Assembly: GCA_902537235.1 (NCBI GenBank)
Contig: CACBAO010000013.1
Span: 1-45,393, forward strand
From: an uncultured Alphaproteobacteria bacterium
Lineage (GTDB): Bacteria > Pseudomonadota > Alphaproteobacteria > Rhodobacterales > Rhodobacteraceae
Direction of reading: 5' to 3'
DNA: 45,393 nucleotides
Positions 21,261 through 38,471 of this stretch are shown piece by piece. A program made the translations under genes and the position numbers. Below the pieces are notes generated by a model. It had not been told where the DNA came from. It did no database searches and saw only the letters and a program-made list of their open reading frames with translations. Numbering within the stretch: the stretch's first letter is position 1; the number at the start of each line of letters is the position of its first letter.

Positions 21261-21276
21261 TGGCATGTTCATTGCA
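21261..21276 (+). promoter_or_regulatory. Sigma-54 promoter (-24/-12) of the transglycosylase / K+ channel operon
   Basis: TGGCATGTTCATTGCA has GG and GC separated by exactly ten bases, with the conserved TGGCA and TTGCA ends. It lies in the gap after the coiled-coil gene. Transcription would start near 21287, which coincides with the first ATG of the next gene. The mRNA could be leaderless, or translation may begin slightly downstream. Confidence 0.72.
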
Positions 21277-21286
21277 GTTTTTTTGC

Positions 21287-22210
21287 ATGATCATGACCAA
21301 TAACCGAGTAAGCGAGTATAAAGTCTTTTTTTTATTTTTAATGTTGTCCCTTCTGTTGAATATTAGTGGCGTATACTCTCAATCTTTAAATTCTTATCAG
21401 GATACACTAAAGTGTGAGTACCTCGCAAAAGATGCGGAGAAAAAATATGGATTACCAGAAAATATTCTGCTGAGTATTTCAAGAGTAGAGTCTGGTTATC
21501 AAAAAGTAGATGGAATTACCAGAGCATGGCCGTGGACTTTGAATGCCGGTGGGGATAGTGCTTACTTTCAAACAAAAAAAGCAGCTTTGGGTTCTTTGAA
21601 AGACAGAATTAAAATAGGTGTTACAAATATCGACATTGGTTGTATGCAGCTTAATTACCGTTGGCATAAAAAATTTTTTAAAAGTTTAAGCGATATGATC
21701 AATCCAATACAAAATGTCGATTATGGAGCAAGGTTTTTAAAAAAACTGCATCAGCGACACGGTTCATGGGAAAAAGCGGTAAAGTACTATCACTCTTCAA
21801 AAAGTAAATTTAATGTTAAGTACTATAGAAAAGTGAAAGCAGTATGGAAAAGAGAAAATAATCAAAGTTCATTGGAACCAAAATTAGTAGCCACTGTTCT
21901 AAAACCTGAAAGTAAAAAAATCAATATTTTAAAGAATAAAGACAGGGCAGTACCTTTGATCAAAATAAATAAGACTGATAAAAGTGTATATGTTAAAGAG
22001 CCACCAGCCAGTAAGTCGGCATCAGAAGAAAACAAATCTATAGTTATCAGTACAGCGAATTTCACGAAATTGGTCGATACCGGAAACGAATTTGATTTTA
22101 CTAGTTTTGTAAAAAACGTAAGTCGCAAAAACAATGCGCTACCTAAATATATTCGTGATAACTGGACAATTGTGTTATCAATAAGGAATCAATTCGAAAA
22201 CGACAAGTGA
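21287..22210 (+). CDS. Exported lytic transglycosylase (SLT domain), candidate flagellar muramidase
   Basis: Peptidoglycan-cleaving enzyme of about 307 residues from the ATG at 21287. A signal peptide (about 1-31, core VFFLFLMLSLLLNISG) leads to the SLT domain (about 40-190). E68 in ISRVESGYQ is the catalytic acid, and NIDIGCMQLNYRWH and QNVDYGARFLKKLHQRHGSWEKAVKYYHS are classic SLT motifs. The C-terminal 110 residues are lysine-rich and unassigned. It heads an operon with the 78-residue protein and the K+ channel under a sigma-54 promoter. In Rhodobacter sphaeroides a separate transglycosylase (SltF) opens the wall for the flagellar rod; this could be its counterpart, by inference. Confidence 0.86.
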   Translation: MIMTNNRVSEYKVFFLFLMLSLLLNISGVYSQSLNSYQDTLKCEYLAKDAEKKYGLPENILLSISRVESGYQKVDGITRAWPWTLNAGGDSAYFQTKKAALGSLKDRIKIGVTNIDIGCMQLNYRWHKKFFKSLSDMINPIQNVDYGARFLKKLHQRHGSWEKAVKYYHSSKSKFNVKYYRKVKAVWKRENNQSSLEPKLVATVLKPESKKINILKNKDRAVPLIKINKTDKSVYVKEPPASKSASEENKSIVISTANFTKLVDTGNEFDFTSFVKNVSRKNNALPKYIRDNWTIVLSIRNQFENDK

Positions 22211-22443
22211 ACAGCAATCTCATGAATGACGCAGAAAAAAAACTATTAGATGACATATCACTGGTGTTGAAAAAACACCCAGATTTTGATTCCCCCTTTT
22301 TTAGGGCCGACGGCGATTTGGTTATACCCCTTAACAGTACACTTAAGAAAAATAGGGAAGCCCATAAAAGATTTGCTAATGCATTTAGCCAGATGATGAA
22401 AAACGATGCCAGTAAGAGACGAAAAAATAAAGCTTGGGTTTAA
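22207..22443 (+). CDS. Small soluble protein of unknown function (78 aa)
   Basis: A 78-residue hydrophilic frame starting at a GTG that overlaps the transglycosylase stop (GTGA), which suggests translational coupling; an ATG at 22222 is an alternative. The middle reads HPDFDSPFFRADGDLVIPLN, and the C-terminus is basic and helical (KKNREAHKRFANAFSQMMK...RRKNK). No family recognised. It lies between the transglycosylase and the channel gene, with the channel frame starting at its end. Confidence 0.65.
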   Translation: MNSNLMNDAEKKLLDDISLVLKKHPDFDSPFFRADGDLVIPLNSTLKKNREAHKRFANAFSQMMKNDASKRRKNKAWV

Positions 22444-22463
22444 ATTTAATCACTGTTTTAGAT

Positions 22464-23366: not shown

Positions 23367-23383
23367 ACGTTTAAGTGTTAGCT

Positions 23384-23399
23384 TGGCATGTATTATGCA
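23384..23399 (+). promoter_or_regulatory. Sigma-54 promoter (-24/-12) of the 54-residue gene
   Basis: TGGCATGTATTATGCA shows GG-N10-GC with exact spacing. Transcription would begin near 23410, just before GGAGG at 23416 and the ATG at 23425. The promoter, ribosome-binding site and start codon are ideally placed relative to each other, which strengthens both the promoter and the small gene. Confidence 0.75.
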
Positions 23400-23424
23400 C
23401 TCTTTAAAGTAAATGGAGGAATAT

Positions 23425-23589
23425 ATGATCAACCGTTCACACGAAATACAAAGAGAACCTAAAAATTTAGAGGAAGATTTTGATTTGGCTTTCAAGCTAG
23501 TTTTCTTTGATGAAAATGACAGAGAAGTAGAACCAGCTCAGTATAAGCCGTTAAGCACTTTTAGGGTTGAAAAAGACATTGCAGTTTAA
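23425..23589 (+). CDS. Small acidic protein under sigma-54 control (54 aa)
   Basis: A 54-residue frame with GGAGG five bases before the ATG and a well-spaced sigma-54 promoter upstream. The product is soluble and acidic (EPKNLEEDFDLAFKLVFFDENDREVEPAQYKP) with no signal peptide or membrane helix. It faces the 3' end of rpoN across a hairpin. No family recognised. In context it could be a flagellar chaperone, an anti-activator or a feedback regulator; nothing in the sequence chooses between these. Confidence 0.68.
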   Translation: MINRSHEIQREPKNLEEDFDLAFKLVFFDENDREVEPAQYKPLSTFRVEKDIAV

Positions 23590-23604
23590 TAACTATTTTC
23601 ACGT

Positions 23605-23635: not shown

Positions 23636-23637
23636 TG

Positions 23638-25125
23638 CTATGCAGTCATAGCGTCTAATTTTGCTCTCCTTTTTCTCTCTGATGAAGAAGGAATATTGAG
23701 CATCTCTCTATATTTTGCTACTGTTCTTCTAGCTAGCTTCACACCATTTTTACTTACAATTTTTGCTATTAGATCGTCACTAAGAGGTTTATCACCTCTT
23801 TCTTCCTTAAGAATTTTCTTTATCATGTTTCTCACTGCAGCTGCTGACTTACTATTTTCTTTGTCATTAGTTTCAATAGTCACGCTAAAAAGTGATTTTA
23901 ATGGAAATGTTCCTTTAGGCGTGGCAATCAGTAACCCGTTGGTCACTCTACTTACGGTGCTCTCATGCATTTTTACTGCCATTGCAATATCTTTCAACGA
24001 TAAGGGCATAAGAAAATCCATTCCTTTTTCAAGAAAGCCTCTTTGCCTTTTAATTATTTCCGCTGTGATCTTTAATGTAGTTATATTTCTTTGCTCTAAT
24101 GCTCTCTTTAACCATCTTGCAGATGAAAGAGCTTGGTTTGCATAATCATCAATTTTTGTATTTTTACTACCCCTTGGCGATAATTTTTTGGCGTAGTCTT
24201 CATTTATATTGATTGATGGTAGTGTTGAACGATTAAGGTCGACTATCCAATCCTCACTACTCTTTCTTACCAAAAGATCTGGCTTGTGCACATTTGAATT
24301 TTCTGTGGAGAATGAAGATCCGGGCTTTGGGTCTAAACTTCTTATTATTGCCAAAAAGCCTTTAACTTTGGTTTCATCACATCCAATTTTCTTGATTAAG
24401 CCCTTTAAATCACCTCTGCCGAGCAAGGGGAGGTTTTCTAAAAGGTTAGAAAGTTCGCTACACATTAAGCCTTTGTCCAATATTTGAAGTCTTAAACATT
24501 CAGACAAGTTCCTGGAGAAAAGTCCTGTAGGTTCTGCACCTTGTAACTTTATCAAAACATTTTTAAGTTCGTCATAATCCACTCTGGTCTCAAGGTGAAT
24601 TTCATCAAGCGATTTTCCTAACCAACCTGAAGGTTCCAACGCTTCTAAGAAATATCGTGCAATTAAGTGCTCTCTTGAGTTTTCCAATAAATAAGGTAGT
24701 TGTTCCTCGATGTGTGCGATTAATGATTTTTCATGATTGGGCACAGTGGATGCAATCATATCCCAATCTTCACCGTTACTTGAGTTAGCACTATTTCCTG
24801 TCCCATAGTCAATGATTGTATTATCAAATCGATTGTCATAGTCTTCATTATTGGTCGGATCATCAGAAAAACTTGTGGTTTCTTTTGCTAAAACTTCTTC
24901 ACTGTTATGATCATTTTTCTCCGATGAGCCGTTTTCTGTATCCTTGTTGTCAGATGCTTGGGGTTCTTCTTCTACATTGATAAAAGGGTTATCAAAAGTT
25001 TGTTCCTCTAAAAACTGTTTAAGCTCAAGGTTTGTTAATTGAAGTAGTTTAATAGCTTGTTGTAGCTGTGGCGTCATCACTAATGATTGCTTTTGTTTTA
25101 TGTTTAAAGACTGTGATAATTGCAT
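23638..25125 (-). CDS. rpoN: RNA polymerase sigma-54 factor RpoN
   Basis: Alternative sigma factor for -24/-12 promoters, 495 residues from the ATG at 25125 (AGGAG eight bases upstream; a TTG six bases earlier is less likely). Region I is the Gln/Leu-rich N-terminus LSQSLNIKQKQSLVMTPQLQ that contacts activators, region II is acidic (about 50-125), and the core-binding and helix-turn-helix parts follow. The DNA-binding RpoN box ARRTVAKYRE is at about 465-474. The usual neighbours of housekeeping rpoN (lptB and hpf/raiA) are absent; it sits instead beside motility genes that carry sigma-54 promoters, suggesting a flagellum-dedicated copy. Confidence 0.96.
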   Translation of the reverse strand: MQLSQSLNIKQKQSLVMTPQLQQAIKLLQLTNLELKQFLEEQTFDNPFINVEEEPQASDNKDTENGSSEKNDHNSEEVLAKETTSFSDDPTNNEDYDNRFDNTIIDYGTGNSANSSNGEDWDMIASTVPNHEKSLIAHIEEQLPYLLENSREHLIARYFLEALEPSGWLGKSLDEIHLETRVDYDELKNVLIKLQGAEPTGLFSRNLSECLRLQILDKGLMCSELSNLLENLPLLGRGDLKGLIKKIGCDETKVKGFLAIIRSLDPKPGSSFSTENSNVHKPDLLVRKSSEDWIVDLNRSTLPSININEDYAKKLSPRGSKNTKIDDYANQALSSARWLKRALEQRNITTLKITAEIIKRQRGFLEKGMDFLMPLSLKDIAMAVKMHESTVSRVTNGLLIATPKGTFPLKSLFSVTIETNDKENSKSAAAVRNMIKKILKEERGDKPLSDDLIAKIVSKNGVKLARRTVAKYREMLNIPSSSERKRRAKLDAMTA

Positions 25126-25331
25126 GTTCAAATCTCCTTATAAGACTATGAAATCAGTTTTTATTCTTAAATCAAAAAAACAATTTGACAGACCGTAATG
25201 TCGATTTTTTGAAATAATTGTTTCATAAAAACAATACCTTATGATATGACTTCAAAAAGCTAACAATTTGTATGTCAAAAAAAAACTATCAATACTTGGA
25301 CGTGTGAGCTAATTTAAAGCGGAGACTAGAA

Positions 25332-25585: not shown

Positions 25586-26065
25586 CTATCTATCTCGTAC
25601 TAACCTGACTGCTAGTTCTTTAATCGGAGAAAATCTGTTAAAAGAGAAACCGGTATGGAAGTTCACGCTTACGTAGAATCTGTTATTAAAGATACTCCGA
25701 TCACCTGTCCAGTAAGGCGCATTATCTGTGTTGGGGAAAATATTTTTATCTATTTTCGGAGAGGGGCACTCTTTACAAACTATTGACTTTAGCTCTGCTT
25801 TTGAGGGCAATCGCCATTCCCCACCTAATTGATTGTTAGCGATTTCAAGAGCTTTTGGAACCATGTCTAAAGAAAGGTTAACTATATTTCCTGAGCATTC
25901 ATTGCCATTCCACTGTTGGCCAACCGAACACCTTAACCACTCTACTTTACGTTCCAGGTCGACGACGATGTGCTCTTTGGTAACAAATCTACTTTCACTG
26001 GCGTGTAAGTTAGAGCAGCTAATAGTTAATATTAATAATACCAGTATAAGTCGTAAAATTGCCAT
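25586..26065 (-). CDS. DUF1566 (Lcl C-terminal-like) exported protein
   Basis: An exported protein of 159 residues. A signal peptide covers about 1-23 (LRLILVLLILTISCSNLHA); a cysteine at 17 does not fit a good lipobox. The rest matches the DUF1566 pattern: WLRCSVGQQWNGNECSG, ALEIANNQLGGEWRLPSKAELKSIV, FPNTDNAPYWTGD and the closing VRLVRDR. The family occurs in surface proteins of unknown role. It converges with the 80-residue membrane protein gene and is divergent from motA. Confidence 0.8.
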   Translation of the reverse strand: MAILRLILVLLILTISCSNLHASESRFVTKEHIVVDLERKVEWLRCSVGQQWNGNECSGNIVNLSLDMVPKALEIANNQLGGEWRLPSKAELKSIVCKECPSPKIDKNIFPNTDNAPYWTGDRSIFNNRFYVSVNFHTGFSFNRFSPIKELAVRLVRDR

Positions 26066-26166
26066 TATATCCGTTCTCTTGTATTTGTTTGCAACTCTAT
26101 TATATTGATAAACAAGTTTGATGCCAAAAAATTTACTTTATTATTTAAATCAAACAGCGGAATTTT

Positions 26167-26182
26167 TGGTATTAAAATTGCA
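26167..26182 (+). promoter_or_regulatory. Sigma-54 promoter (-24/-12) of motAB
   Basis: TGGTATTAAAATTGCA has GG and GC ten bases apart and the consensus TTGCA; the usual C after GG is T. Transcription would begin near 26194, leaving a leader of about 40 bases with AAGGA before the motA ATG. Confidence 0.65.
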
Positions 26183-26233: not shown

Positions 26234-26998
26234 ATGGATATAGCTTCTCTTCTAGGACTAATTGGAGCGCTTGGATTCATCATATACGCAATGGTTTCGG
26301 GTGGCGGTATTGGCCCTTTTATAGACGTCCCTTCATTAGCTATTGTTTTTGGAGGAACTTTTTTTTGTGTAATGTATACCTGCCCCTTGCCTACATTCCT
26401 AGGGTCGTTTGGCGTTATGGCCAAGGCTTTCTTCCCACCCGTGAAACCTCAAGATGAATTAGTTACAAAGATGGTTGAGTTGGCAGGAATCGCAAGAAAG
26501 GACGGCATGATGGCACTAGAGGGCCAGGATGTCCCAGATAAGTTTTTCTCAAAGGGCTTGCAGATGCTAGTTGATGGAGCAGACGAGGCAAAGCTTACAA
26601 CTCAATTAAATCAAGAAATCAAAGCTATGAAAGCCCGTCATGAATCTAATCAAAATGTGGTGAAGGCATGGATAGACATTGCCCCGGCTATGGGTATGAT
26701 CGGAACACTTGTTGGGCTAGTTTTGATGTTGGGGAATATGGCGGATCCAAAGGCTATCGGGCCAGCTATGGCAGTTGCTCTTTTGACGACCTTATATGGA
26801 GCGTTCATAGCAAATGTTTTATTTTTGCCTATGATAACATCTCTAGAGGGCTACACTGCATATGAGGTAACTTACAGAGAGATGGTCGTTATGGGACTAA
26901 GGAACATAGCAAGAGGAGAGTCTCCTAGGAACATACAGGATCAGATGGTCGCTAACTTACCTCCAGCCGTTCAACAAAAACTTGAAGCCGCCGCATAA
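26234..26998 (+). CDS. motA: Flagellar motor stator protein MotA (PomA-like)
   Basis: Ion-conducting stator subunit, 254 residues, four membrane helices (about 4-24, 30-50, 146-168 and 178-200). The large cytoplasmic loop (about 55-145), which contacts FliG, carries charged residues. The signature DIAPAMGMIGTLVGLVLMLGNM at helix 3 is closer to the PomA/MotC type than to enterobacterial MotA (295 residues), as is the short length. Sodium use is possible but not proven. It is followed by motB after 24 bases and preceded by a sigma-54 promoter. Confidence 0.95.
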   Translation: MDIASLLGLIGALGFIIYAMVSGGGIGPFIDVPSLAIVFGGTFFCVMYTCPLPTFLGSFGVMAKAFFPPVKPQDELVTKMVELAGIARKDGMMALEGQDVPDKFFSKGLQMLVDGADEAKLTTQLNQEIKAMKARHESNQNVVKAWIDIAPAMGMIGTLVGLVLMLGNMADPKAIGPAMAVALLTTLYGAFIANVLFLPMITSLEGYTAYEVTYREMVVMGLRNIARGESPRNIQDQMVANLPPAVQQKLEAAA

Positions 26999-27022
26999 TA
27001 GTAGTTTTGAGGATATAAAATA

Positions 27023-28183
27023 GTGGCGGAAGAAGTAGAACCAGAAATAGAAGAAGAAGAGGAAGAATGTCCTAAGTGTCCTCCTGTTGGAGCTCCGGCA
27101 TGGATGGCGACATTTGCAGATATGGCTACACTTCTTATGGCTTTTTTCGTGTTAATTCTTTCCTTTGCAGAATTTAACGTACCCAAGTTCAAGCAAATAT
27201 CAGGTTCACTGAAAAACGCATTTGGAGTCCAGCGATTAGTCCCTGTTGTTGAACAACCTAAGGGTACAACAGTATTATCTTTAAATTTTAGTCCTTCTCC
27301 TAGCCCTTCGGTGACAAAGCAGATGACACAGCAAACAACCAACCTAGAGAAGAAGGAGCTTGAAGTCAAAACTGAAGAAGATGAAGGAGGAGAGCAAGAC
27401 AAAAGCGCCAAGGAACTGGTGGAAGCGCTTCAAGACGCTGTTGATAAGGGTGAAATAAAGGTTGAAGCAATCGGTGAAGCTGTAAAAGTAGAAATTGGTG
27501 ACGAAGAAACATTGGCAAAGGATCTGCCAAAGTTAATAGAAGAAACGTTACAAGCCATTGAAGAGGCAAAAAACAAAACAGGAAATACTGATCAAGAAGT
27601 ACTTTTTGGTGGTATTGAAGAAAAGCTAAAGGAGTTAGCCTCTCTTGCTCAAACAGAGGCCGACGGTGTAACAAAAGGCTCATCAAAAGCTTCTGGCACA
27701 GGTGAAGATGATAATGAGAAATCTGCACAAGAGGCCTCTGTGAACGAAGCAGCTAATGAACTCGAGATAGCCTTGAAAAGTGAAATTGATAAGGGTTTAG
27801 TTAGTGTAGAACGAAAAGATGGGAAAGTATTTGTGACTGTTGGCTCCGGAGGAGCATTTGCTTCAGGGTCAGCAGAATTGACATCTCAAGCGAGGCAGAT
27901 AATGTCTAAAATTGCTAACAAGGGGGTAGGGGAAACCGGAATTGTGACAGTTTCCGGTCATACAGATAATGTTCCTTTGATGTTTGGTGGAAATTTTAGA
28001 GATAATTGGGATCTCGCTGCTGCCAGAGCATCAAGTGTTGTACAGGAACTTGAAAAAGCTGGTAATATTAGTACCGATAGAATGAAGGCTGTTAGTTTTG
28101 GCGAGTCAAAGCCAATAGACTCAAACGAGACTGCTGCCGGAAGAGAAAAGAATAGACGAATTGAAATCGAAATAAATTTTTAA
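27023..28183 (+). CDS. motB: Flagellar motor protein MotB, with an unusual acidic linker
   Basis: Peptidoglycan-anchored stator subunit, 386 residues with a GTG start. The N-terminus is very acidic (six consecutive Glu) and contains CPKC (16-19). The single membrane helix (about 27-48) holds the ion-binding aspartate D33 in ATFADMATLLMAFF. A long Glu/Lys/Ala-rich linker (about 95-240) precedes the OmpA-like domain (about 270-385) with VSGHTDNVPL and NRRIEIEI. The linker copy ELVEALQDAVDKGEIKVEA (about 131-149) resembles ELEIALKSEIDKGLVSVER (about 247-265) at the start of the periplasmic domain, an internal duplication. It is longer than typical MotB/PomB (about 300-320). Confidence 0.95.
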   Translation: MAEEVEPEIEEEEEECPKCPPVGAPAWMATFADMATLLMAFFVLILSFAEFNVPKFKQISGSLKNAFGVQRLVPVVEQPKGTTVLSLNFSPSPSPSVTKQMTQQTTNLEKKELEVKTEEDEGGEQDKSAKELVEALQDAVDKGEIKVEAIGEAVKVEIGDEETLAKDLPKLIEETLQAIEEAKNKTGNTDQEVLFGGIEEKLKELASLAQTEADGVTKGSSKASGTGEDDNEKSAQEASVNEAANELEIALKSEIDKGLVSVERKDGKVFVTVGSGGAFASGSAELTSQARQIMSKIANKGVGETGIVTVSGHTDNVPLMFGGNFRDNWDLAAARASSVVQELEKAGNISTDRMKAVSFGESKPIDSNETAAGREKNRRIEIEINF

Positions 28184-29431: not shown

Positions 29432-30301
29432 CTACGTATACTGTGTTATAGCTTTAGGTACGTTACCAGATTTTTTCTTTTTTCGAGGTTTGGAAACTTC
29501 TTTCCTGTATGGTTTTACGAGAGCGTTAACAAAGTTCACCTTTTCATCTATATTGCGGCACATCTCTTGAGCTTCTAAGTCTGATCTTGCTGCTAATATA
29601 GCCCATACCTGCCTGTCCTGAAACATTCCATAACTTCTTCTTAGCGTAACTTGGCCCTTCCTGAAGTATAGACCTACTAGAACGGCTGCTAAAATGAAAA
29701 GAAATATATTTACGCTGAATGTTATTAGATAGACACAAAGTATGGCCAGCAGAGGTTCCCACATTTTCTGTTGTAATAACCAAACTGGAGGTAAAATAAC
29801 CGCCACTTGACTATGCGAAGTGTCGTATACATCCACAACGCGTGTTACGTCTCTTAGCGCTTCAAATATACGATATTCATCTTTTTGACCCATTTCTCTT
29901 TTTTGAAATAAATCCGTGATCATTTGAGACTCTTCAGGACGGGTGAACTCAAAAATACCACCCAAAGGACCTCTGGTAAATATCTCAAAAAACTTGCCAT
30001 TTCTCCAGATCGTAAGAAGCCACATATCACCTTCTTCTCCACTAGAAAGAAGGTCTACCATATTATCTATAGTATCGTGATAACTGACGCCATCTATTGC
30101 TACTACTATGTCATTCTCTTTCAGTCTTAAAGCTCTTGTTCGGGATGAATTGCCGTGTTCTTTGAGCTTAAGGAAAGTTTGTAATTGACTATCTTCAGAG
30201 TTACTTTCTCTCATTTCATTAAAATTTTCACTCGGCATCATCTCTAAATCTTGAGAGTTATCAGTGTTAATTGGAGATTCTTTATTATCTAAATCTTGCA
30301 T
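29432..30301 (-). CDS. PDZ-like membrane protein of unknown function
   Basis: A 289-residue protein. After an acidic, disordered N-terminus (about 1-45), residues about 53-115 look like a PDZ-type domain: RALRLKENDIVVAIDGVSYHD followed by LLSSGEEGDMWLLTIWRNGK. A hydrophobic pair of helices follows (about 179-212), and the C-terminus is cytoplasmic and basic, ending KPRKKKKSG. It is the last of four uncharacterised genes downstream of flhB on the same strand, 19 bases after the coiled-coil gene. Role unknown; assembly or stator scaffolding is a guess. Confidence 0.7.
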   Translation of the reverse strand: MQDLDNKESPINTDNSQDLEMMPSENFNEMRESNSEDSQLQTFLKLKEHGNSSRTRALRLKENDIVVAIDGVSYHDTIDNMVDLLSSGEEGDMWLLTIWRNGKFFEIFTRGPLGGIFEFTRPEESQMITDLFQKREMGQKDEYRIFEALRDVTRVVDVYDTSHSQVAVILPPVWLLQQKMWEPLLAILCVYLITFSVNIFLFILAAVLVGLYFRKGQVTLRRSYGMFQDRQVWAILAARSDLEAQEMCRNIDEKVNFVNALVKPYRKEVSKPRKKKKSGNVPKAITQYT

Positions 30302-30320: not shown

Positions 30321-31070
30321 TTAAGGAAACTTAATTAATCCATCCGAACTCTTTATTTTACTGAATATTTCTTCATTCTTTTTATATAGAGATCTAATTT
30401 CTTTTGTTAATTGACTTTGTGATCTTGATATCTCTTCCATCACCATGTTATCTGAGCCAGAAGAATGCATGTCTTCTAACGAGGCCAGAAGTTGTTTTTG
30501 ATATTCTTCTATACCTTTACTCAGTTCACCTAGTCTCTTTTCAAATGATTGCGCAATTTTCTCAGCAAATATATTAACAGCCTGCTCGGTGTTTTTGGTC
30601 ATAACTTCCTGTAGACCTTTGTTTTGCTCTAGAACCCTACTTGCAAGAGCATTTGTTGCAACGGCAATTTCTTTCCTTAAAGAAGATAGCTCTTCAACTA
30701 ATTTTGCGTTCTGTTTTTCTAAAGCTACCTGGCTTTCCATCGCTACTGATAGGGCTTTTACATTGTCTTTAAGATCATCCACATTTTCTGCAAAAATCAC
30801 TAGAGCTTCTCTGTTAGTGGTTGTCATTACACCAAGATCTGACATAGAGCGAAAATATAGAACTGATGAAAATATCATCGCCACTATAGCTGCAATCATA
30901 GAGCTCCCAAAAATTATAGTCGTATAACGATGTATTTGCTTCACTTGTGTCTCCAATTTTTTATGCTCTCTTTTAACTTTATTATACTCAGAGGTTACGT
31001 CAGTCGCTGCATCTGCAGCATCTAATGCGATTTTTATACTTTCTTCTATTGTACTTAGATCTGAACTCAT
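30321..31070 (-). CDS. Transmembrane coiled-coil protein of unknown function
   Basis: A 249-residue protein with a helical cytoplasmic N-terminus (about 1-48), one membrane helix (about 51-72, IIFGSSMIAAIVAMIFSSVLYF), and a long helical region with coiled-coil character (about 90-240) resembling chemoreceptor or MotE-like helices, but without an identifiable signalling hairpin. Its ATG shares a base with the stop of the preceding Cys-rich gene (TAATG), so translation is coupled. No family recognised. It belongs to the four-gene block after flhB. Confidence 0.7.
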   Translation of the reverse strand: MSSDLSTIEESIKIALDAADAATDVTSEYNKVKREHKKLETQVKQIHRYTTIIFGSSMIAAIVAMIFSSVLYFRSMSDLGVMTTTNREALVIFAENVDDLKDNVKALSVAMESQVALEKQNAKLVEELSSLRKEIAVATNALASRVLEQNKGLQEVMTKNTEQAVNIFAEKIAQSFEKRLGELSKGIEEYQKQLLASLEDMHSSGSDNMVMEEISRSQSQLTKEIRSLYKKNEEIFSKIKSSDGLIKFP

Positions 31071-31264
31071 TAACGTGACCTCCTACGAGATTCGATTTTC
31101 TTTTCTAGTTTTTTCTTAAGATAATAAGCACATTTCGTGCCAGTTGTTGCCATAACTTCCTGGTAAGGAATTTTTGATGACTTAAAACCAAATTTCCTAC
31201 ATCCCCATCGTCTTTTTGGATCGTGAGTAATATACAAATAGATACACTGATTACATGTAATCAT
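31070..31264 (-). CDS. Small cysteine-rich protein (64 aa), probable metal-binding knuckle
   Basis: A 64-residue protein with cysteines at 4, 7, 22 and 45 (CNQC ... WGCRKFGFKSS ... TGTKCAYY), spaced like a zinc- or iron-binding site, and a very basic tail (KKKLEKKIESRRRSR). I have the impression that short proteins with the same C-x2-C / GC-x-x-F-G-F-K-S / TG-x-x-C pattern occur in other proteobacteria, without known function. It overlaps the 75-residue gene by four bases and the coiled-coil gene by one, so it is translated as part of the post-flhB block. Confidence 0.7.
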   Translation of the reverse strand: MITCNQCIYLYITHDPKRRWGCRKFGFKSSKIPYQEVMATTGTKCAYYLKKKLEKKIESRRRSR

Positions 31265-31489: not shown

Positions 31490-32644
31490 TTAATTCTCCT
31501 TCAAAATAGTTCCGTTTTCATTGAACCTTAAATCTTCTGGAACATCAATATCTGGGGCATCTATATCTTCCCCTCTATCTAATTTATATACATATGCTAG
31601 TGCTATAGCCACAGCATTGTAAAGCTTTTCAGAGATTTCTTCTCCAATTTCACCAGTGAAAAATAGTGCTCTTGCAAGTAGAGGGCTTCTAAAGCTTGTT
31701 ATATTTTTTTCAACTCCTATCTCCATGATCCTTTTCGCAATCAGTCCTTTACCCATAGCTATAATTTTTGGAGCTCCTAATTGTCCAACTTCGTATCTAA
31801 GTGCTATCGCAAAATGAGTTGGGTTTGTAATAATTGCTGTTGCACTCCCCATATTTTCGAGTGCTTCATGTTGCTTTGCAGACTTTGTGGCGCTCTCCAT
31901 TTGAAGGCGTCTTATTTTCGCTCTTACTTCGGGTGATCCTTCTGTTTGTTTATATTCGTCCTTTACTTCTTGCTTAGTCATCCTTAGAGACTTGATGTGC
32001 TCGTACCTTTGATAGAAGTAGTCCAATGCAGCTATTATCATAAGGCAAACCAATAAAGCTCCGATCAAAAGAGGGAATGAAGACTTGGTTAGTTCTAATC
32101 CGGACTTTAAGGTTCCATCAGTTATTCGCAATATTTGTGGGAGCAGATAGTAAATTACCCCTATAGCGCTTGCAAATAATAAACCAACTTTCAATAAAGC
32201 TTTACCGAGCTCAACTAAGCTCTTTAAAGAAAACATTCTTTTTAACCCACTGAGAGGGTTTATTCTATTTGCTTTAAAAGCGATTGCTTTTGGGGCAAAA
32301 TTTATTCCACCAACTGCAAATTGTGTTGCCAAAACGATGATCAACATCGGAATACCAATAAGAAGTGTGATTTTAAGTATAAAAAATAGAGCCTCTAACG
32401 ATTTTGTTGAGGGTAAATCTTCAAGCTTATCATTTCCAGAAAATACAAAAAGGTTCCCCCACTCAAATAAAAGCGCTTTGAAGCTAAAGGAAAACGCATA
32501 CATAAGCACTAATGCACCAAAAATCCCAGTAAATACGAACATTTCTTTGGAAGTCAGAACTTTACCGTCTTCTTTATGCTTATCAATTTTACGTTGGGAA
32601 GGTTCTTCGGTTTTCTCCTGCCCATCTTGGTTTTCTTCAGCCAT
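31490..32644 (-). CDS. flhB: Flagellar type III export protein FlhB
   Basis: Export-gate protein that switches substrate specificity from hook to filament. It is 384 residues with four membrane helices in the N-terminal half (about 36-56, 85-110, 145-168 and 188-210). The cytoplasmic domain carries the autocleavage site NPTH at 274-277, followed by FAIALRYE. The C-terminus is full length, ending near DVPEDLRF. Its start overlaps the fliR stop by eight bases. flhA, which usually follows in gamma-type clusters, is not present; four uncharacterised genes follow instead. Confidence 0.96.
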   Translation of the reverse strand: MAEENQDGQEKTEEPSQRKIDKHKEDGKVLTSKEMFVFTGIFGALVLMYAFSFSFKALLFEWGNLFVFSGNDKLEDLPSTKSLEALFFILKITLLIGIPMLIIVLATQFAVGGINFAPKAIAFKANRINPLSGLKRMFSLKSLVELGKALLKVGLLFASAIGVIYYLLPQILRITDGTLKSGLELTKSSFPLLIGALLVCLMIIAALDYFYQRYEHIKSLRMTKQEVKDEYKQTEGSPEVRAKIRRLQMESATKSAKQHEALENMGSATAIITNPTHFAIALRYEVGQLGAPKIIAMGKGLIAKRIMEIGVEKNITSFRSPLLARALFFTGEIGEEISEKLYNAVAIALAYVYKLDRGEDIDAPDIDVPEDLRFNENGTILKEN

Positions 32645-33452
32645 TTTTTAGACTTTCCATTGTTGTCATCAGATGATCCAGAGAAGAGTTAATCAAGTCC
32701 GAAAAAGCAAATCCCAAGTTACCGATTGAAAGATATAAAACAACAAAAGTACCAAGCATTGTGATTGGAAAACCAAATGAAAACAAATTGAGTTGTGGAG
32801 CTGATCGCGTGATAATTCCAATTGCTACATTTATTAACAGCACAACTAACACCACAGGTAGCATGATTATTGATGCATTTAAGAACATAGAACCAGAAGC
32901 CGCCATTCCCCCGTCAATTAAAGCTGACGGTACTGGAAGTGTACCTATTGGTATTAGATTATAGCTCTCTATTATAATTCTAAGTGCTATGAGATGACCG
33001 TCAACTGTCAAGAAAATCATTATTAAGAATAGGTATAAAATTTGGCTTACTACCGGGGTTTGCACTCCTGAAACTGGATCTACTTGGGCAGCATAGCTTA
33101 AACCGGCACTGGTTGCTATTTTTTCTCCTGCTAAAGAGGCTGCGGAAAACATTATAGAGAGTATTAGACCAGCTGTTACCCCAATCGCTATCTCTTTAAA
33201 AATAATAGCAATACCATAGGCAGACGTTAGTATTTTCGTTTCAAGCTCTAGTGGGTGAACTGAAAAAACTATTATCGAGATTACAAAGGCTATAATAATT
33301 CTGACCCTGAGCATAATGAAACGAGCACTAAAAAAAGGAGAGGCAATGATAAATGCGCTAAGTCTGATACTGGTTAAGAAAAATGTTAATAATATTTCTA
33401 TTATGTTCTGAAGTCCTAAGCCTGGGATAATGTCATTAAGTGATTGTTCCAT
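32637..33452 (-). CDS. fliR: Flagellar export protein FliR
   Basis: Membrane component of the flagellar export gate, 271 residues with about six to eight hydrophobic helices. The motif AGLSYAAQVDPVSGVQTPVVSQ (about 110-131) is the conserved FliR/SctT segment. It lies three bases after fliQ and overlaps flhB. Ordinary length and order. Confidence 0.94.
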   Translation of the reverse strand: MEQSLNDIIPGLGLQNIIEILLTFFLTSIRLSAFIIASPFFSARFIMLRVRIIIAFVISIIVFSVHPLELETKILTSAYGIAIIFKEIAIGVTAGLILSIMFSAASLAGEKIATSAGLSYAAQVDPVSGVQTPVVSQILYLFLIMIFLTVDGHLIALRIIIESYNLIPIGTLPVPSALIDGGMAASGSMFLNASIIMLPVVLVVLLINVAIGIITRSAPQLNLFSFGFPITMLGTFVVLYLSIGNLGFAFSDLINSSLDHLMTTMESLKNG

Positions 33453-33455
33453 CTA

Positions 33456-33728
33456 CTATGCTTGACCAATCGAAGCTATTTGATCGAAGATGAATGCAAA
33501 ATAATCGGCTAATCCAGTCAACATAAAGTTAGCGATTAGTGCTAATGTCAAAAGAACGAGCACCAATTTTGGAACAAAGCTCAAGGTCATTTCATTGATA
33601 GAAGTTGCTGCTTGAATTATACCAATTAAAAGACCGATGCCTAAAGCTACTATCAGTACTGGCCCAGCAGATATTATAATTTGCCAAAATGCATCCTCTA
33701 AATAATTGACGTTAGTATCGAATTCCAT
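33456..33728 (-). CDS. fliQ: Flagellar export protein FliQ
   Basis: A 90-residue gate component with two helices (about 16-38 and 50-73). GLLIGIIQAATSINEMTLSFVPK is the family signature. It lies between fliP (15 bases) and fliR (3 bases). Confidence 0.94.
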   Translation of the reverse strand: MEFDTNVNYLEDAFWQIIISAGPVLIVALGIGLLIGIIQAATSINEMTLSFVPKLVLVLLTLALIANFMLTGLADYFAFIFDQIASIGQA

Positions 33729-33743
33729 GTGAGAACTCCTCGA

Positions 33744-34523
33744 TTAGTTTGATACATAAGTTGCTACAAGTGATCCTACCGTCATTGCCCAACCATCAAC
33801 CAAAACAAATAATAGAAGCTTAAATGGTAGAGCAACTAACATTGGACTAAGCATCATCATTCCTAGAGACATTAATATTGAAGCAATCACCATGTCTATA
33901 ACTAGAAAAGGAAGAAAAAGAAGAAAGCCTATTTGAAAAGCAGTCTTAAGCTCAGATGTAATAAAAGCTGGTAGTATTACCGTCAATGGTATATCTCTAA
34001 AGTCCTCATATCCTTTATCACCAATTAAATCGGTAAACATAGATAAATCATTTTCTCTGGTATTTTTTACTAAAAACTCCTTCAAAGTATTTGAACCTCT
34101 TGATAATGCAGGCTTGGCAGCCAATTTCCCCTCAAGGTAAGGGTCGAGCGCAGTTTTATTTATTTCCGTAAGGGTAGGGGTCATTATAAAAAAGGTTAGG
34201 AAAAGCGCTATAGCAATTAAAACCTGGTTTGGCGGTGTTTGTTGAGTTCCCATTGCTTGTCTAAGGATGGAGAGGACGATTATTATTCTTGTGAAGGAAG
34301 TGGCACCAAGCACTATCGATGGCAGTAAAGTTAGTCCTGTCATTAAAGCCAGTATCTGAAGTGATAATGAGTAAGTTGTTTCATTCTCACTATTGCTTTC
34401 AATTTTCAAAGCAGGAAGCCCCTCGGCAAAACTCGATACGCTATCCTGCGCAAAGACTATATCAGTCGAAAGAGACATAATTACGGTTGAAAATATTATT
34501 AATATATTTTTTACTTGCATCAT
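33744..34523 (-). CDS. fliP: Flagellar export protein FliP
   Basis: Core protein of the export gate, 259 residues including a cleavable signal sequence (about 1-25, ILIIFSTVIMSLSTDIVFA). Recognisable are LTLLPSIVLGATSFTRIIIVLSILRQAMG (about 60-88), QTPPNQVLIAIALFLTFFIM and the C-terminal IDMVIASILMSLGMMMLSP. Its start overlaps the fliO stop by four bases. Confidence 0.96.
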   Translation of the reverse strand: MMQVKNILIIFSTVIMSLSTDIVFAQDSVSSFAEGLPALKIESNSENETTYSLSLQILALMTGLTLLPSIVLGATSFTRIIIVLSILRQAMGTQQTPPNQVLIAIALFLTFFIMTPTLTEINKTALDPYLEGKLAAKPALSRGSNTLKEFLVKNTRENDLSMFTDLIGDKGYEDFRDIPLTVILPAFITSELKTAFQIGFLLFLPFLVIDMVIASILMSLGMMMLSPMLVALPFKLLLFVLVDGWAMTVGSLVATYVSN

Positions 34524-34942
34524 TTTTTGAACCCAAGTTTTGGGTTCATCTTCCGCGCATTCGATATTGCATCTGACAATATATTGGATTTACCCTTAGA
34601 TTGTTCTTTGTTGCGTGGCGTATCATTTGAGCTGCCTTTAAGTTTTTGTAGTTCTGCAGTTCTGTTGCTGATTGATACAGCCTTTCCTTCATGAGGTATA
34701 ATTGTAGGAGAAGATCCTTTAGAAGAGAAATAAAGGTATTCTTTGTCATCAACTCTGATTAGTCTAATTCGCTCAGAGTTACTAAGTCCAAATTCATCAA
34801 TAAACCTTATTCTCTTCTTTTTATTCAAATGACTTTGAAAGCTGAATTTATTATTTTTCAGCAACTGTTGTAAAACGATTAGGCCTCCTAAAAAGAGTAA
34901 AACAACAATAATCTGAGTTAAGCTTATATCTTGCACTTGCAT
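34520..34942 (-). CDS. fliO: Flagellar protein FliO
   Basis: Small bitopic protein that helps FliP assemble. It is 140 residues: one N-terminal membrane helix (about 9-26, QIIVVLLFLGGLIVLQQLL) and a cytoplasmic domain with SERIRLIRVDDKEYLYFSS, the typical FliO pattern. A GGAGG ribosome-binding site precedes the ATG, and a sigma-54 promoter lies 25 bases upstream. It is first gene of a fliO-P-Q-R-flhB transcript that probably includes the four genes after flhB. Confidence 0.88.
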   Translation of the reverse strand: MQVQDISLTQIIVVLLFLGGLIVLQQLLKNNKFSFQSHLNKKKRIRFIDEFGLSNSERIRLIRVDDKEYLYFSSKGSSPTIIPHEGKAVSISNRTAELQKLKGSSNDTPRNKEQSKGKSNILSDAISNARKMNPKLGFKK

Positions 34943-34966: not shown

Positions 34967-34982
34967 GCAAATACCATGCCAA
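34967..34982 (-). promoter_or_regulatory. Sigma-54 promoter (-24/-12) upstream of fliO
   Basis: On the minus strand TTGGCATGGTATTTGC has GG (34980-34979) and GC (34968-34967) ten bases apart, with the conserved TGGCA and TTGC. Transcription would start near 34955, with AAGGAGG next and the fliO ATG at 34942. The placement in the only sizeable gap (34943-35061) of the flagellar operon supports it. Confidence 0.75.
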
Positions 34983-35042
34983 AAAATTTATTTCGTTATT
35001 GTGTTGTTTTTATATGGGGAAAGAAGAATTTTTTCATTACAA

Positions 35043-35058: not shown

Positions 35059-35061
35059 AGA

Positions 35062-35403
35062 TTATTTGACACTCTCAATTCTTTTTTGAGGATCAACTAT
35101 TTCTACAAATCTTATTCCAAATCTTTCTCCAACCATTACTACTTCGCCCTTAGCGATCATTGTTCCGTTTATTAATATATCTAGTGGGTCTCCTGCAAGT
35201 CTGTCCAACTCTATAACCGAACCTTCATTTAATCTGAGTAATTCTTTTATTTTTAACTCAGCGCTTCCAACTTCCACTGTCAGTTTTACATCAATGTTTT
35301 CCAATACCCTAAGATTGTCTGCAGAAGCTGAACTTTGCTCTTGCTCCTCTGCATTGTTTGATTGTTCCTCAACTTGTTCCTCTATATTCTCTTCTTCACC
35401 CAT
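35062..35403 (-). CDS. fliN: Flagellar motor switch protein FliN
   Basis: C-ring protein, 113 residues. An acidic Glu/Gln-rich N-terminus (about 1-30) precedes the SpoA domain: VELTVEVGSAELKI-like strand, LLRLNEGSVIELDRLAGDPLDILINGTMIAKGEVV and the closing FGIRFVEIV. It lies 17 bases after fliM. Confidence 0.94.
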   Translation of the reverse strand: MGEEENIEEQVEEQSNNAEEQEQSSASADNLRVLENIDVKLTVEVGSAELKIKELLRLNEGSVIELDRLAGDPLDILINGTMIAKGEVVMVGERFGIRFVEIVDPQKRIESVK

Positions 35404-35420
35404 TGTTTCGGCCTCATTTA

Positions 35421-36398
35421 TTATTTACTTAATCTCTTCTTTAAATTTACTGCAGCTTGTCCAGAGAGTTCCCCAAGCTCACTTAGAAACACTAATTGAT
35501 CCTCAATTAAAACTTCAATTCCCTCACCAATGTATATAGGAAAAGTATCACCTGTCCTAGTCTGCAAAAGTTTATTCATTGGTACAGTCGGTTCACTCAA
35601 TCGACAACTGACATTTAAGGGAATTTCCATTACAACTCGTTCTAACTTTTCTTTCCATGTATAGTCGTCGTCAATAACTTCACTTTGCACTCTTGATCTA
35701 AGCTGTGAAGCTATGGGCTTGAGTGTTTGCAGTGGGTAGATAACATCAAAAGTAGCCGCATCGACGCCTGGTAATTGTACTACAAAAGAACATATGATTA
35801 CCATTTCTGCATTATCAACAAAGGAAGCAAATTGTGGATTGACCTCTCTGCTTTGCTCGGTAAGGGTTATGGGCATTAAATCGTACCATGCTTTTTCGAG
35901 CATTCTGTTAAGACCTTCCGATACAATTTCTATTAATCGCTCTTCAGTACTTGTAAACTCAGTCCTTTTCTCCTTTATAGCTTCTATCTGACCACCATAA
36001 TATGAATTTGTAAGTATCGATATAAAATTTGGATCCATAACTAGTAGCATGTTTCCTCTAAGTTCTTCTAATCTATTAGAGGTTAAACTCATAAAACTCT
36101 CTATCCCAGATGAGTATTCATCAAAGGTTTTTACTTCTGGTGGAAACGAAGATATTCGTGGCAGTATCCTCAGCATAGGTAGGAAGACGCTTCTAGCTTG
36201 CCGAGCGAATCTTTCGTTAACTAGTCTCAGGGCATAATAGTCTCCTAGTAACGACAATTCATCAGAACCAAACTTGTATGGCCGGACATTAGCAGCTTCT
36301 GAAATATCAGAGGATAACGCATTGCCATCGTCATCAGACTGCAAACCTTCTATTAGTGCATCAACTTCTTCACTAGATAATTTTCTTGAAGATACCAC
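35421..36398 (-). CDS. fliM: Flagellar motor switch protein FliM
   Basis: C-ring protein that binds CheY-P and controls rotation direction. It is 325 residues with a GTG start. The N-terminal LSSEEVDALIEGL (about 7-19) corresponds to the CheY-binding/start motif. The CheC-like middle domain and the C-terminal SpoA domain (about 255-315) follow; the conserved GGRG-like core motif is not obvious in the middle domain. It lies 17 bases after fliL. Confidence 0.92.
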   Translation of the reverse strand: MVSSRKLSSEEVDALIEGLQSDDDGNALSSDISEAANVRPYKFGSDELSLLGDYYALRLVNERFARQARSVFLPMLRILPRISSFPPEVKTFDEYSSGIESFMSLTSNRLEELRGNMLLVMDPNFISILTNSYYGGQIEAIKEKRTEFTSTEERLIEIVSEGLNRMLEKAWYDLMPITLTEQSREVNPQFASFVDNAEMVIICSFVVQLPGVDAATFDVIYPLQTLKPIASQLRSRVQSEVIDDDYTWKEKLERVVMEIPLNVSCRLSEPTVPMNKLLQTRTGDTFPIYIGEGIEVLIEDQLVFLSELGELSGQAAVNLKKRLSK

Positions 36399-36415
36399 TT
36401 AAATATCGGCCTTTC

Positions 36416-36991
36416 TTATTGAAGCATAAAGGAAGTGAAATGAACGTTTTCGATTCCCCCAAATCCTTCTAGCTCTTCCAACCTTGTGTTTAATTCTGCA
36501 GCTATAGCTTTTGCAAGAGCGTCTCTTCCTGATTTTCCTTCTATATCCTGCTCAGAAAACTCGCTCATTACAGCTAGAATGCTTGATCTTAGTGATAATT
36601 GATGATCCTCTACGTTTGTTATAACATTATCATCATATTGTGTTGAAACTCCAATCCCTGCTTGTAGAAATTTTCTAGAGCCCCTTAGATTTGTCGTAAA
36701 GTTACCAGGAAACTCATAATAAGTCGTTATAAACTTCTCTACTTCTGGGGCCTCTTTCTTTTGAGGCCCAGCATTTGCGGCTTCCTCTGCAGCTTTTGCT
36801 TCTTCAGCTTCTTTCATTTTTCTTTCAATTATTTCTTCTATCTCTGCGGATGGATCAGCTGGTTTTCCCCCAAATAGAAAATATCCTACTCCTATACCTA
36901 TTCCGATTAAAGCGATAACTCCCAAAGCCATAATTATGATTTTCATCGAACCGCCTTTTTTAGGCTCTTCTTCTTTTTCTTCTTCTGCCAT
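36416..36991 (-). CDS. fliL: Flagellar basal body-associated protein FliL
   Basis: Stator-supporting protein, 191 residues. A charged N-terminus, one membrane helix (about 16-42, MKIIIMALGVIALIGIGIGV), a Glu/Ala-rich linker (about 50-85) and a periplasmic stomatin-like domain with YYEFPGNFTTNLRGSRKFLQAGIGVS are seen. The C-terminus ends VHFTSFMLQ as in the family. It lies between fliK and fliM, 17 bases from each. Confidence 0.93.
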   Translation of the reverse strand: MAEEEKEEEPKKGGSMKIIIMALGVIALIGIGIGVGYFLFGGKPADPSAEIEEIIERKMKEAEEAKAAEEAANAGPQKKEAPEVEKFITTYYEFPGNFTTNLRGSRKFLQAGIGVSTQYDDNVITNVEDHQLSLRSSILAVMSEFSEQDIEGKSGRDALAKAIAAELNTRLEELEGFGGIENVHFTSFMLQ

Positions 36992-37008
36992 TTCGCCTGT
37001 CCTTTTAT

Positions 37009-38427
37009 TTAAGCTATAACGTTTAGGCCTTCGCCTTCGCTATCTGTTTTACCAATCGGTTTTGATGACTTTGAATTGTCCTCGATACTACTCTCTTTAA
37101 TTTGTGAAGCAAGTTTTTGGTTTTGCTCTTTTCCTTTTTGATTGTTTCCAAATTGTTGGTTTTGTGTTTGAAGTGACGCTAGCTTAAGCCCAGAAGCTTC
37201 CATCATTTGTGAAAGTTTGTGTTCTGCTTCACTTAGAAGAGTGGCCGCACCAGCGCTTTCAGCTATTATATTAATTTTGGCAACTGTATCGTGTATATTA
37301 ATAGTAACGTTTAGCCTTCCTAAACTTTTTGGTGTTAGTGAAATTTCTAGTTTCTCAATCCCATCAACAATAGATTTCTCTATTTTTTCAATTAACTTAT
37401 TTCCCCATGTCTTTGAAAGCATATTTAAAGTTTGGAGTAACTTATCATTGGCTTCTTGACCAAAAGTCAAAGGTTTCTGTACATTGGCTGAGTCCAAATT
37501 AGCTGCTGTATCTAACTTGCTAGTGGGAGTTATAGGTTGTCTTACAGGCGAAGGCTCTAAGCTTGATTCTTTTAATAATGCTTCATTTATAGGATTTTGA
37601 TTTGATGTGGCAATACTTTTCTCAACGTTACTTTTTGCAGCACCCTGAATTTGAGATATTTTTTTTTCTAAATGCTGAGATATATTTAAACCCTTGTGTT
37701 TTGTTGAAATTTTATTGTTAGCTTCGGCTTTGAGCTCGGCGTTTTTCAAGTGAACAAAGTCAATTTTTCTTGTTTGAATATCTCTCAATTCTTTTGAGTT
37801 TTTATCTATTACACTTAAGACATCTTTTCCAAAAGAGCTCTGATTTCCACGCCCAGTGGCGTCTATTTGGTCATGAGCTTTAACTTTAATGATATTCTTT
37901 TCAAAATTTTCAGCATCTTTTGTCGTTAGGTTAGTTTTAATTTGTTCGTTTAATTTTGTTCTTACCTTGTCCAAGGTTAAGTCAAGTTCTTGGCTTATCT
38001 TTTTTTCTTGCGCTCGGTTGATGATCAAACTCTTTAATTCCTCCAAGAATTTCATGAGGTGCAAAAAATTTTTGTTGCCAAAGTTGCTTGCTTGTTCTGA
38101 GTGAAGATTTTCTTGCGCTTCAAAATTGAGTTCTAACTTTTTAAACAGGCCTATTAAATTTTTTTTTATATCGTTTAATGTATCCTTAGTTAAATTCAAT
38201 TTACTTTCTTGCAACAAACTCAGTATTTGCAAAACATTACCCTCAGCGATCCTATCATCATTTTCAAATGCTTCGTAATCGTGCAAATCATCGTCATTAT
38301 TAGCATCTACATTGCTTAATAAAGAATTAAAAAAACTGTTGCTCTTAGAGATACCCCTGCCACCATTTCCGGTTTCTAGCAGGTCAAACTTCATATTATT
38401 ATTATTATTTTGCACTATTTCAGTCAT
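37009..38427 (-). CDS. fliK: Flagellar hook-length control protein FliK
   Basis: Molecular ruler, 472 residues. The first 320 are low-complexity, Asn/Lys/Ser-rich and probably disordered. The conserved Flg_hook domain is at about 335-420: LEISLTPKSLGRLNVTINIH and AATLLSEAEHKLSQMMEASGLKLASL. Family members vary widely in the N-terminal part, so identification rests on the C-terminal domain and on position between fliJ and fliL. It is preceded by a near-perfect sigma-54 promoter and starts a new transcript. Confidence 0.88.
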   Translation of the reverse strand: MTEIVQNNNNNMKFDLLETGNGGRGISKSNSFFNSLLSNVDANNDDDLHDYEAFENDDRIAEGNVLQILSLLQESKLNLTKDTLNDIKKNLIGLFKKLELNFEAQENLHSEQASNFGNKNFLHLMKFLEELKSLIINRAQEKKISQELDLTLDKVRTKLNEQIKTNLTTKDAENFEKNIIKVKAHDQIDATGRGNQSSFGKDVLSVIDKNSKELRDIQTRKIDFVHLKNAELKAEANNKISTKHKGLNISQHLEKKISQIQGAAKSNVEKSIATSNQNPINEALLKESSLEPSPVRQPITPTSKLDTAANLDSANVQKPLTFGQEANDKLLQTLNMLSKTWGNKLIEKIEKSIVDGIEKLEISLTPKSLGRLNVTINIHDTVAKINIIAESAGAATLLSEAEHKLSQMMEASGLKLASLQTQNQQFGNNQKGKEQNQKLASQIKESSIEDNSKSSKPIGKTDSEGEGLNVIA

Positions 38428-38455
38428 CTAACCATCTTCCTTGACTTTCTCTTTT

Positions 38456-38471
38456 GCAAAATAGGTGCCAA
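38456..38471 (-). promoter_or_regulatory. Sigma-54 promoter (-24/-12) upstream of fliK
   Basis: On the minus strand TTGGCACCTATTTTGC, followed by A, matches the sigma-54 consensus TGGCAC-N5-TTGCA at every conserved base, with GG-N10-GC spacing. It lies in the 56-base gap between fliJ and fliK; transcription would start near 38444, 17 bases before the fliK start. Confidence 0.82.

Follow-up and report, generated by a model that had tools for sequence, protein, structure and literature searches.

The stretch of DNA analysed here, called the window throughout, is the complete contig C13 (45,393 nucleotides; CACBAO010000013.1) of a draft assembly of an uncultured Rhodobacteraceae bacterium (GCA_902537235.1) that comprises 1.92 Mb in 59 contigs and is 80.55% complete. 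The window holds an island of flagellar genes arranged as fleT-fliEFGHIJ, then fliKLMN, then fliOPQR-flhB, an order that is retained in relatives, together with motAB, an sltF-like gene, the only rpoN gene found in the genome, which encodes sigma-54, and several sites of the -24/-12 type (Table 1). Comparison with relatives makes it very probable that this is a flagellar island of the FleQ/FleT/RpoN2 type in a streamlined marine member of the Rhodobacteraceae, with a sigma-54 that appears to have no other job there.

Table 1. Flagellar genes, sigma-54 sites and neighbouring features of the window
Feature	Position	Strand	Remarks
Decoy match inside hisA coding sequence	17938..17952	-	exact pattern; not counted as promoter
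Sigma-54 site before sltF	21261..21275	+	TGGCATGTTCATTGC; 5' of SLT gene in 10/10 loci including the window
sltF-like lytic transglycosylase	21287..22210	+	Pfam SLT, 8.8e-12
Candidate sigma-54 site before small open reading frame	23384..23398	+	exact match; lowest matrix score of the five
Conserved small protein, 54 amino acids	23425..23589	+	convergent with rpoN; GGAGG; no known family
rpoN (sigma-54)	23638..25131	-	single copy found in genome
Sigma-54 site before motAB	26167..26181	+	exact match; 15/15 loci including the window
motA (PomA-like) and motB	26234..28183	+	
Gene 3' of motF-like gene	29432..30301	-	weak PDZ-like match, E 0.0014, far below cut-off
motF-like gene	30321..31070	-	one transmembrane helix at about residues 50-70, long C-terminus
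Sigma-54 site before motF-like gene	31128..31142	-	within 3' end of 64-amino-acid open reading frame; 12/12 loci including the window
fliO-fliP-fliQ-fliR-flhB	31490..34942	-	fliO by synteny (no Pfam hit)
Sigma-54 site before fliO	34967..34981	-	20/20 windows; 18/18 distinct without the study window
fliK-fliL-fliM-fliN	35062..38427	-	FliN by Pfam; others read from sequence
Sigma-54 site before fliK	38456..38470	-	17/21 loci; other 4 also have a nearby site
fliE-fliF-fliG-fliH-fliI-fliJ	38484..44530	-	read from sequence; equal order in relatives
fleT, ended by contig edge	44527..45393	-	AAA+ with GAFTGA, no helix-turn-helix; about 396 amino acids in relatives

Sigma-54 sites in the window and their conservation

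With the pattern TGGYAYN6TGC for the -24/-12 element, seven exact matches are found in the window. Five had been named in a preliminary description of this DNA and all five proved exact; the match at 31128 on the minus strand had been overlooked, and the one at 17938, inside the hisA coding sequence, was rejected as a promoter. Six of the seven fall within the non-coding 7.3% of the window (binomial p 1e-6; the gene list used for the analysis gives a coding fraction of 92.7%), or five of the seven on a strict count, as the site at 31128 lies inside the 3' end of a cysteine-rich open reading frame (ORF) of 64 amino acids (aa) that the gene list omits. Dinucleotide shuffles of the non-coding stretches yielded a mean of 0.026 matches and a maximum of 2 in 1000 shuffles as compared to the six observed, and with up to one mismatch allowed the window contains 50 matches as compared to 21.1 +/- 4.3 (maximum 31) in 100 shuffles. 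The placement of the five named sites directly upstream of genes, also part of the preliminary description, needs amendment at 23384, where the site lies 26 bp 5' of a 54-aa ORF and rpoN is encoded on the opposite strand, for which reason a promoter aimed at rpoN was rejected at this position. The site at 21261 ends 11 bp 5' of the likely sltF ATG at 21287. At 31128 the codons ACT GGC ... TGT are by eye identical in 12/12 loci, divergent ones included. This suggests that the promoter constrains the sequence in addition to the protein, with the reservation that near relatives do not count as independent cases. The overlapping 64-aa ORF itself (31070-31264, minus strand), situated between flhB and the motF-like gene and carrying CxxC, WGC and GFKS motifs, is present in distant relatives and has no match in Pfam (E<=1) or NCBIfam (E<=0.01). 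In several near relatives, as in the window, an imperfect site (TGGCATCAAACTTGT, 26112-26126, minus strand; judged by eye) is aimed at a gene for an Lcl_C-domain protein (25586-26065) that is divergent from motA.

Relatives were gathered with FliF of the window as query, which returned 31 loci: 11 at 92-99% identity from uncultured Alphaproteobacteria (single-cell or metagenome-assembled genome (MAG) records), 4 at 71-73% (one Rhodobacteraceae MAG, one Paracoccaceae MAG and two uncultured), 11 at 58-61% (SAR116, four by name, and other Alphaproteobacteria), 4 at 49-52% (Marinovum, Marivita and other Rhodobacteraceae) and a single Methylomirabilis locus at 29%. SAR116 genomes possess the flagellar island too. 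When the 200 bp 5' of orthologous genes were inspected in up to 47 loci, the window included, every fliO, motA, motF-like and sltF gene had a site (20/20, 15/15, 12/12 and 10/10, respectively), as did fliK in 17/21; in the four fliK exceptions (L093, L094, L095, L178) the start had been misplaced and a site lies just upstream. In total this amounts to 74/78 for the five promoter genes and 0/289 for 15 other genes and, after a recount of distinct upstream sequences without the window, made because locus L173 repeats part of L094, to 68/72 and 0/270. The motA site is by eye retained while the flanking sequence diverges. Under a looser rule without control (GG-N10-GC, up to two mismatches) fleT is preceded by a site in 26/26 relatives with context; the full-length FleT query behind this count gave 31 loci, of which four were near an edge and one lacked fleT. 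A site at this place is what transcription of the fleT operon from FleQ and sigma-54 would require. In the 200 bp upstream of rpoN no sigma-54 site was found in any of 16 loci, and a sigma-54 site before rpoN was therefore rejected. In several relatives a site lies just 5' of a gene that by eye reads as FliD.

In the whole genome the pattern matches 61 times as compared to 16 times for the reversed pattern. The majority of these matches lie in coding sequence, yet on the two flagellar contigs, the window and C20, 9/13 fall outside ORFs (11 when 21261 and 31128 are counted) as compared to 7/48 on other contigs. A weight matrix was built from 48 distinct sites of relatives, with the 5th percentile of the training scores as strict threshold. 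A coding versus intergenic comparison with such a matrix had been named as a check in the preliminary description. At the strict threshold hits concentrate on the flagellar contigs: 302 kb of the genome yielded seven hits, six of them on the flagellar contigs (79 kb; 31128 included) and one in the remaining 224 kb, a biased sample in that most other contigs scanned were chosen for holding a pattern match. This single outside hit lies 31 bp 5' of a gene. At looser thresholds coding hits appear: with 31128 taken as non-coding, a score of 14 gives 9 non-coding and 1 coding hits on the flagellar contigs versus 5 and 4 elsewhere, and a score of 12 gives 12 and 5 versus 8 and 12.

Contig C20 carries sites as well, and its genes read by eye as flhA, flhF, flhG, fliA, flg and flagellin genes. 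The regulon had been proposed to be self-contained; the island indeed has its own rpoN and FleT, but the proposal is too narrow given the sites on C20. Two C20 genes beside flhA received no FlgO, FlgP or FlgT name from NCBIfam, and a gene near flhA (L036:12286-12714) matches the FimV/HubP polar landmark family, though below cut-off. Away from the flagellar contigs, intergenic sites also occur before a 106-aa ORF (C22:3066; L045), before an 87-aa lipoprotein-like ORF (C19:3330; L039), before a protein that by eye resembles the methyltransferase encoded at 28285-29412 of the window (C31:798; L042), and 281 bp from another gene (C24:9473; L041).

FleT and, in relatives, its neighbour FleQ

The sigma-54 activator reported at 44527 is an AAA+ protein with the GAFTGA loop. 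It is of the FleT type, which is devoid of a DNA-binding domain, and its N-terminus is lost at the contig end. Since the frame runs off the contig, a complete stand-alone regulator was rejected. The protein is 64% identical over 249 aa to FleT of genome G051, which belongs to the same family and is very likely a Cereibacter. No Pfam family corresponds to the N-terminal 130 aa of FleT in relatives, at E<=1 in one protein and at E<=0.01 in three more. Directly upstream of fleT, 23/26 relatives with context (L110 and L111 included) encode a divergent AAA+ protein of about 355-380 aa; of the exceptions, loci L084 and L108 end too early and G045 has its fleQ 32 kb from fleT. As this neighbour has a helix-turn-helix (HTH) and no N-terminal domain by Pfam in 4/4 cases tested, it is taken to be FleQ, and in all four pairs tested FleT lacks the HTH that FleQ has. 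In a tree of these proteins FleT and FleQ split at 100/100, and the FleT of the window falls, with moderate support (80/93), among those of SAR116 and other families and not among the G051-type FleTs. A single assembly holds two fleQ/fleT-like pairs (G162:C28 and G162:C29), which may reflect a duplicated island or mixed strains.

Lineage and apparent dedication of sigma-54

The preliminary description was right in locating rpoN among the named sites, inside the flagellar island, and the number of rpoN copies, which it had suggested counting, is one in this genome of about 80% completeness. Within the family rpoN was found above cut-off in 45/149 genomes, namely in 9/9 with a FleT orthologue (E<1e-100) versus 36/140 others. 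In 8/9 rpoN and fleT share a contig, at a distance of about 12-21 kb; in the ninth (G027) rpoN is on another contig of the draft. A tree of 51 RpoN rows (49 different) was constructed from which the short row L069 was dropped and which leaves out the second G104 copy and others not fetched as loci. The 25 rows from FleT/FliF-bearing genomes form one group (89/89), including the in-island copy of G051, whereas the other three of the four G051 copies fall outside it. Within RpoN the window and 16 further rows (streamlined, SAR116-type and others) constitute a subgroup supported at 100/100. Island and RpoN lineage thus seem to have moved together. At E<=1e-100 a scan covering 299 genomes of the phylum picked up this genome alone, the threshold being too strict to tell the origin.

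Which activators could work with sigma-54? Three AAA+ activators are recognisable in the genome, FleT, NtrX and NtrC, and the GAFTGA loop, which marks a classical sigma-54-dependent NtrC, is absent from both NtrC and NtrX. Loss of GAFTGA from NtrC has been reported for Caulobacter, R. capsulatus and other Rhodobacterales (PMC10274813). With a single rpoN and no GAFTGA in NtrC or NtrX, sigma-54 looks dedicated to the flagellum. In 22 genomes, many of them incomplete, a DNA pattern for G[A/S/T/P]FTGA, which misses AGY serine codons and whose hits were judged by position and not all translated, found only the divergent fleQ/fleT pair in 15 (among them the four SAR116 single-cell genomes that carry that name), the pair together with one hit in a glutathione transferase in two, two pairs in G162, two hits in G155, each on its own small contig, one hit each in G000 and G149, and none in G154. 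Among ten further genomes, G045, G384, G551 and G474 (the last by position) have only fleQ and fleT as activators, three additional loop hits are not activators, three f9 genomes, G322 and G276 also have a loop-bearing NtrC-like protein, and G051 has several. In the FleT tree the proteins of G384, G551 and G474 are close to those of SAR116 and UBA4588. A single rpoN, with the loop confined to fleQ and fleT, is found in G045, which is listed as 100% complete. Taken at sequence level, sigma-54 thus looks shared in some FleT lineages and dedicated in the present lineage and in SAR116-type genomes, a dedication that goes beyond what the preliminary description claimed.

A small protein facing rpoN

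An ORF of 54-72 aa follows an exact pattern match in 13/17 loci read around rpoN, the window included; it was not found in L173, L174, L177 and L115. Since the ORF was located via the site, the two are not independent evidence. Identity of its product to that of the window is 54-89% for six near relatives and 16-26% for six more distant loci; every aligned sequence has F28, and nearly all have V26 and D29. The ratio of non-synonymous to synonymous differences (pN/pS) is 0.42 for seven near sequences and about 0.18 for L182/L183, the comparison of the window with L175 pointing in the reverse direction on few changes. The window protein has no hit in Pfam (E<=1) or NCBIfam (E<=0.01). Of three members examined, none matches an NCBIfam family at E<=0.01 and two lack any Pfam match at E<=1; the member in L184 has one Pfam match at E 0.045, below cut-off. 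A profile of the ORF run against 372 genomes gave five matches including this genome. Two of them, in G384 and G474, are situated at about 21 kb from fleT, and the other two, with weak E values of 0.0012 and 0.00997, seem to be chance matches. The profile is then positive in 2/8 other FleT genomes, provided that all eight are among the 372. It could be imagined that the small protein feeds back on sigma-54 as an anti-sigma factor or checkpoint, or that its transcription into the 3' end of rpoN damps sigma-54 after the cascade. Either form of feedback is a speculative and rather unlikely proposal, made less probable by the matrix score of the site before the ORF, which is below that of the hisA decoy.

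Proposed mechanism and alternatives

How would the island be switched on? FleQ, expected just past the contig end as in near relatives, would bind DNA and together with the sigma-54 polymerase start the fleT-fliEFGHIJ operon. FleT, itself without a DNA-binding domain, would then join FleQ, and both together with sigma-54 would fire fliKLMN, fliOPQR-flhB, motAB, the motF-like gene and sltF, probably also the small ORF, as well as the flg and flagellin genes on C20. In this sequence of events FleQ would precede FleT and the sites would act as promoters. The pair corresponds to the one described for C. sphaeroides, where FleT has no DNA-binding domain, its operon with fliEFGHIJ is FleQ-dependent, and a FleQ/FleT complex acts on later genes (PMC7277832 and PMC11999139).

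Several points weigh against a FleQ/FleT/RpoN2-type island with a dedicated sigma-54. All observations come from sequence. The control windows of the upstream comparison are largely coding sequence of the preceding gene, and the matrix is not independent, its training sites being orthologues of several window promoters; looser thresholds moreover bring coding hits off the island (12 at score 12). A conserved ORF extends into the site at 31128. The RpoN group has moderate support, and for many of its rows a place of rpoN inside the island is presumed. FleQ is not seen in this assembly of about 80% completeness, from which a second rpoN or another activator could also be missing, and fleQ does not adjoin fleT in G045 and G051. 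Candidate sites precede genes of unknown or other function on C19, C22, C24 and C31, and the regulon may reach beyond motility. Furthermore, the hisA match recurs in six relatives fetched with hisA, so that coding sequence can keep matches, and the site at 23384 scores 10.89, lower than the hisA decoy with 12.72, the other five window sites reaching 18.1-23.6. The last two points, along with the 61 mostly coding matches in the genome, would be expected if the matches were a product of chance or coding constraint and not promoters. Such an explanation is scarcely credible in the face of sites in 68/72 versus 0/270 upstream windows, of 0.026 matches in shuffles versus six observed, and of a motA site that by eye persists while its flanks diverge.

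Sigma-54 could alternatively be an ordinary shared RpoN that also serves nitrogen or other regulons, with the flagellum as one client. An NtrC-like protein with an intact GAFTGA or GSFTGA loop does occur in five genomes with FleT that belong to other families (three f9, one f19, one f104), and 7/48 matches off the flagellar contigs are intergenic. Sharing is nevertheless unlikely in the present genome, where just three AAA+ activators are found and NtrC and NtrX are without the loop, as reported for NtrC of Caulobacter and Rhodobacterales (PMC10274813), and G045, G384, G551 and G474 (listed as 100% complete) show the loop in FleQ and FleT only (G474 by position). Control by FlbD and CtrA according to the Caulobacter logic, with the sites answering to FlbD, is suggested by the prevalence of the vertically inherited fla1 type, which accounts for 77% of 284 Rhodobacterales clusters, and by the control of flagellar genes through CtrA in the two species tested (PMC12363192). 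It is very improbable for this island: by its gene order and in the trees of RpoN and FleT the island falls with FleQ/FleT systems, and the proposal was rejected since no FlbD-like protein is among the three activators found, CtrA itself not having been searched for.

If sigma-54 is dedicated as proposed, the genome offers a natural example in which a global sigma factor has apparently come to serve a single organelle. A flagellum that was laterally acquired and has its own sigma-54 has been studied in R. sphaeroides; here a module of that kind is the only sigma-54 system found in an open-ocean lineage. An rpoN mutant is predicted to lose motility only and the promoter list to be short. New are the small protein next to rpoN, the occurrence of the module in SAR116 as well, and the apparent restriction of the one rpoN found to the flagellum.

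Additional genes of the island

The assignments of sltF and motAB are clearer than that of the motF-like gene. The sltF product is 47% identical over 143 aa to that of a gene adjoining fleQ in the Cereibacter-like G051. The motF-like name is based on position and build, similarity being weak: G051 encodes a protein of equal build at the same place after flhB (30% identity over 46 aa, E 0.001), and the build fits MotF, described as a 24 kDa protein with a helix at 54-74 (PMC7277832). The gene 3' of it stays next to the motF-like gene in relatives.

Comparison with known systems

The preliminary description likened the island in logic to RpoN2/FleQ/FleT of Rhodobacter sphaeroides; gene order, the RpoN tree, FleT and, in relatives, its FleQ neighbour argue for membership in kind. 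Its rpoN lies in the island and belongs to the RpoN2 lineage (89/89), FleT, an AAA+ protein with GAFTGA and without HTH, heads fleT-fliEFGHIJ, and sigma-54 sites precede the flagellar operons. Among the papers listed in a literature survey none treats such a system in SAR116 or streamlined Rhodobacteraceae, which does not prove absence; RpoN, FleQ and SAR116 do not occur in the accessible part of PMC12363192 on Rhodobacterales flagella, nor do flagell- or motility in PMC8547437 on SAR116.

With Fla1 of Cereibacter sphaeroides, as represented by G051 and described in PMC7277832 and PMC11999139, the island shares fleT before fliE, rpoN in the island, a FleT without HTH, an sltF gene, a motF-like gene beside flhB, and an RpoN in one tree group. 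In contrast to the single rpoN found here, Cereibacter has four; its fleQ lies about 20 kb off next to sltF, whereas it is divergent beside fleT in the near relatives of the window; motAB is outside the island in R. sphaeroides (PMC7277832) and inside here; a conserved small ORF faces rpoN here; and RpoN and FleT of the window group with SAR116-type and not with Cereibacter-type rows. In Helicobacter pylori an RpoN flagellar regulon is likewise controlled by an activator without DNA-binding domain (PMC3930126). This activator, FlgR, is however a phosphorylated response regulator that acts without DNA binding, whereas the N-terminal region of FleT has no Pfam match and FleT is expected to need FleQ. 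FleQ is the RpoN-dependent master activator in Pseudomonas (PMC3930126), and flhF, flhG and fliA of its polar system are, named by eye, present here too. The FleQ of relatives differs in having no N-terminal domain detected by Pfam (four tested), and the step taken by FleSR in Pseudomonas has FleT in its place here.

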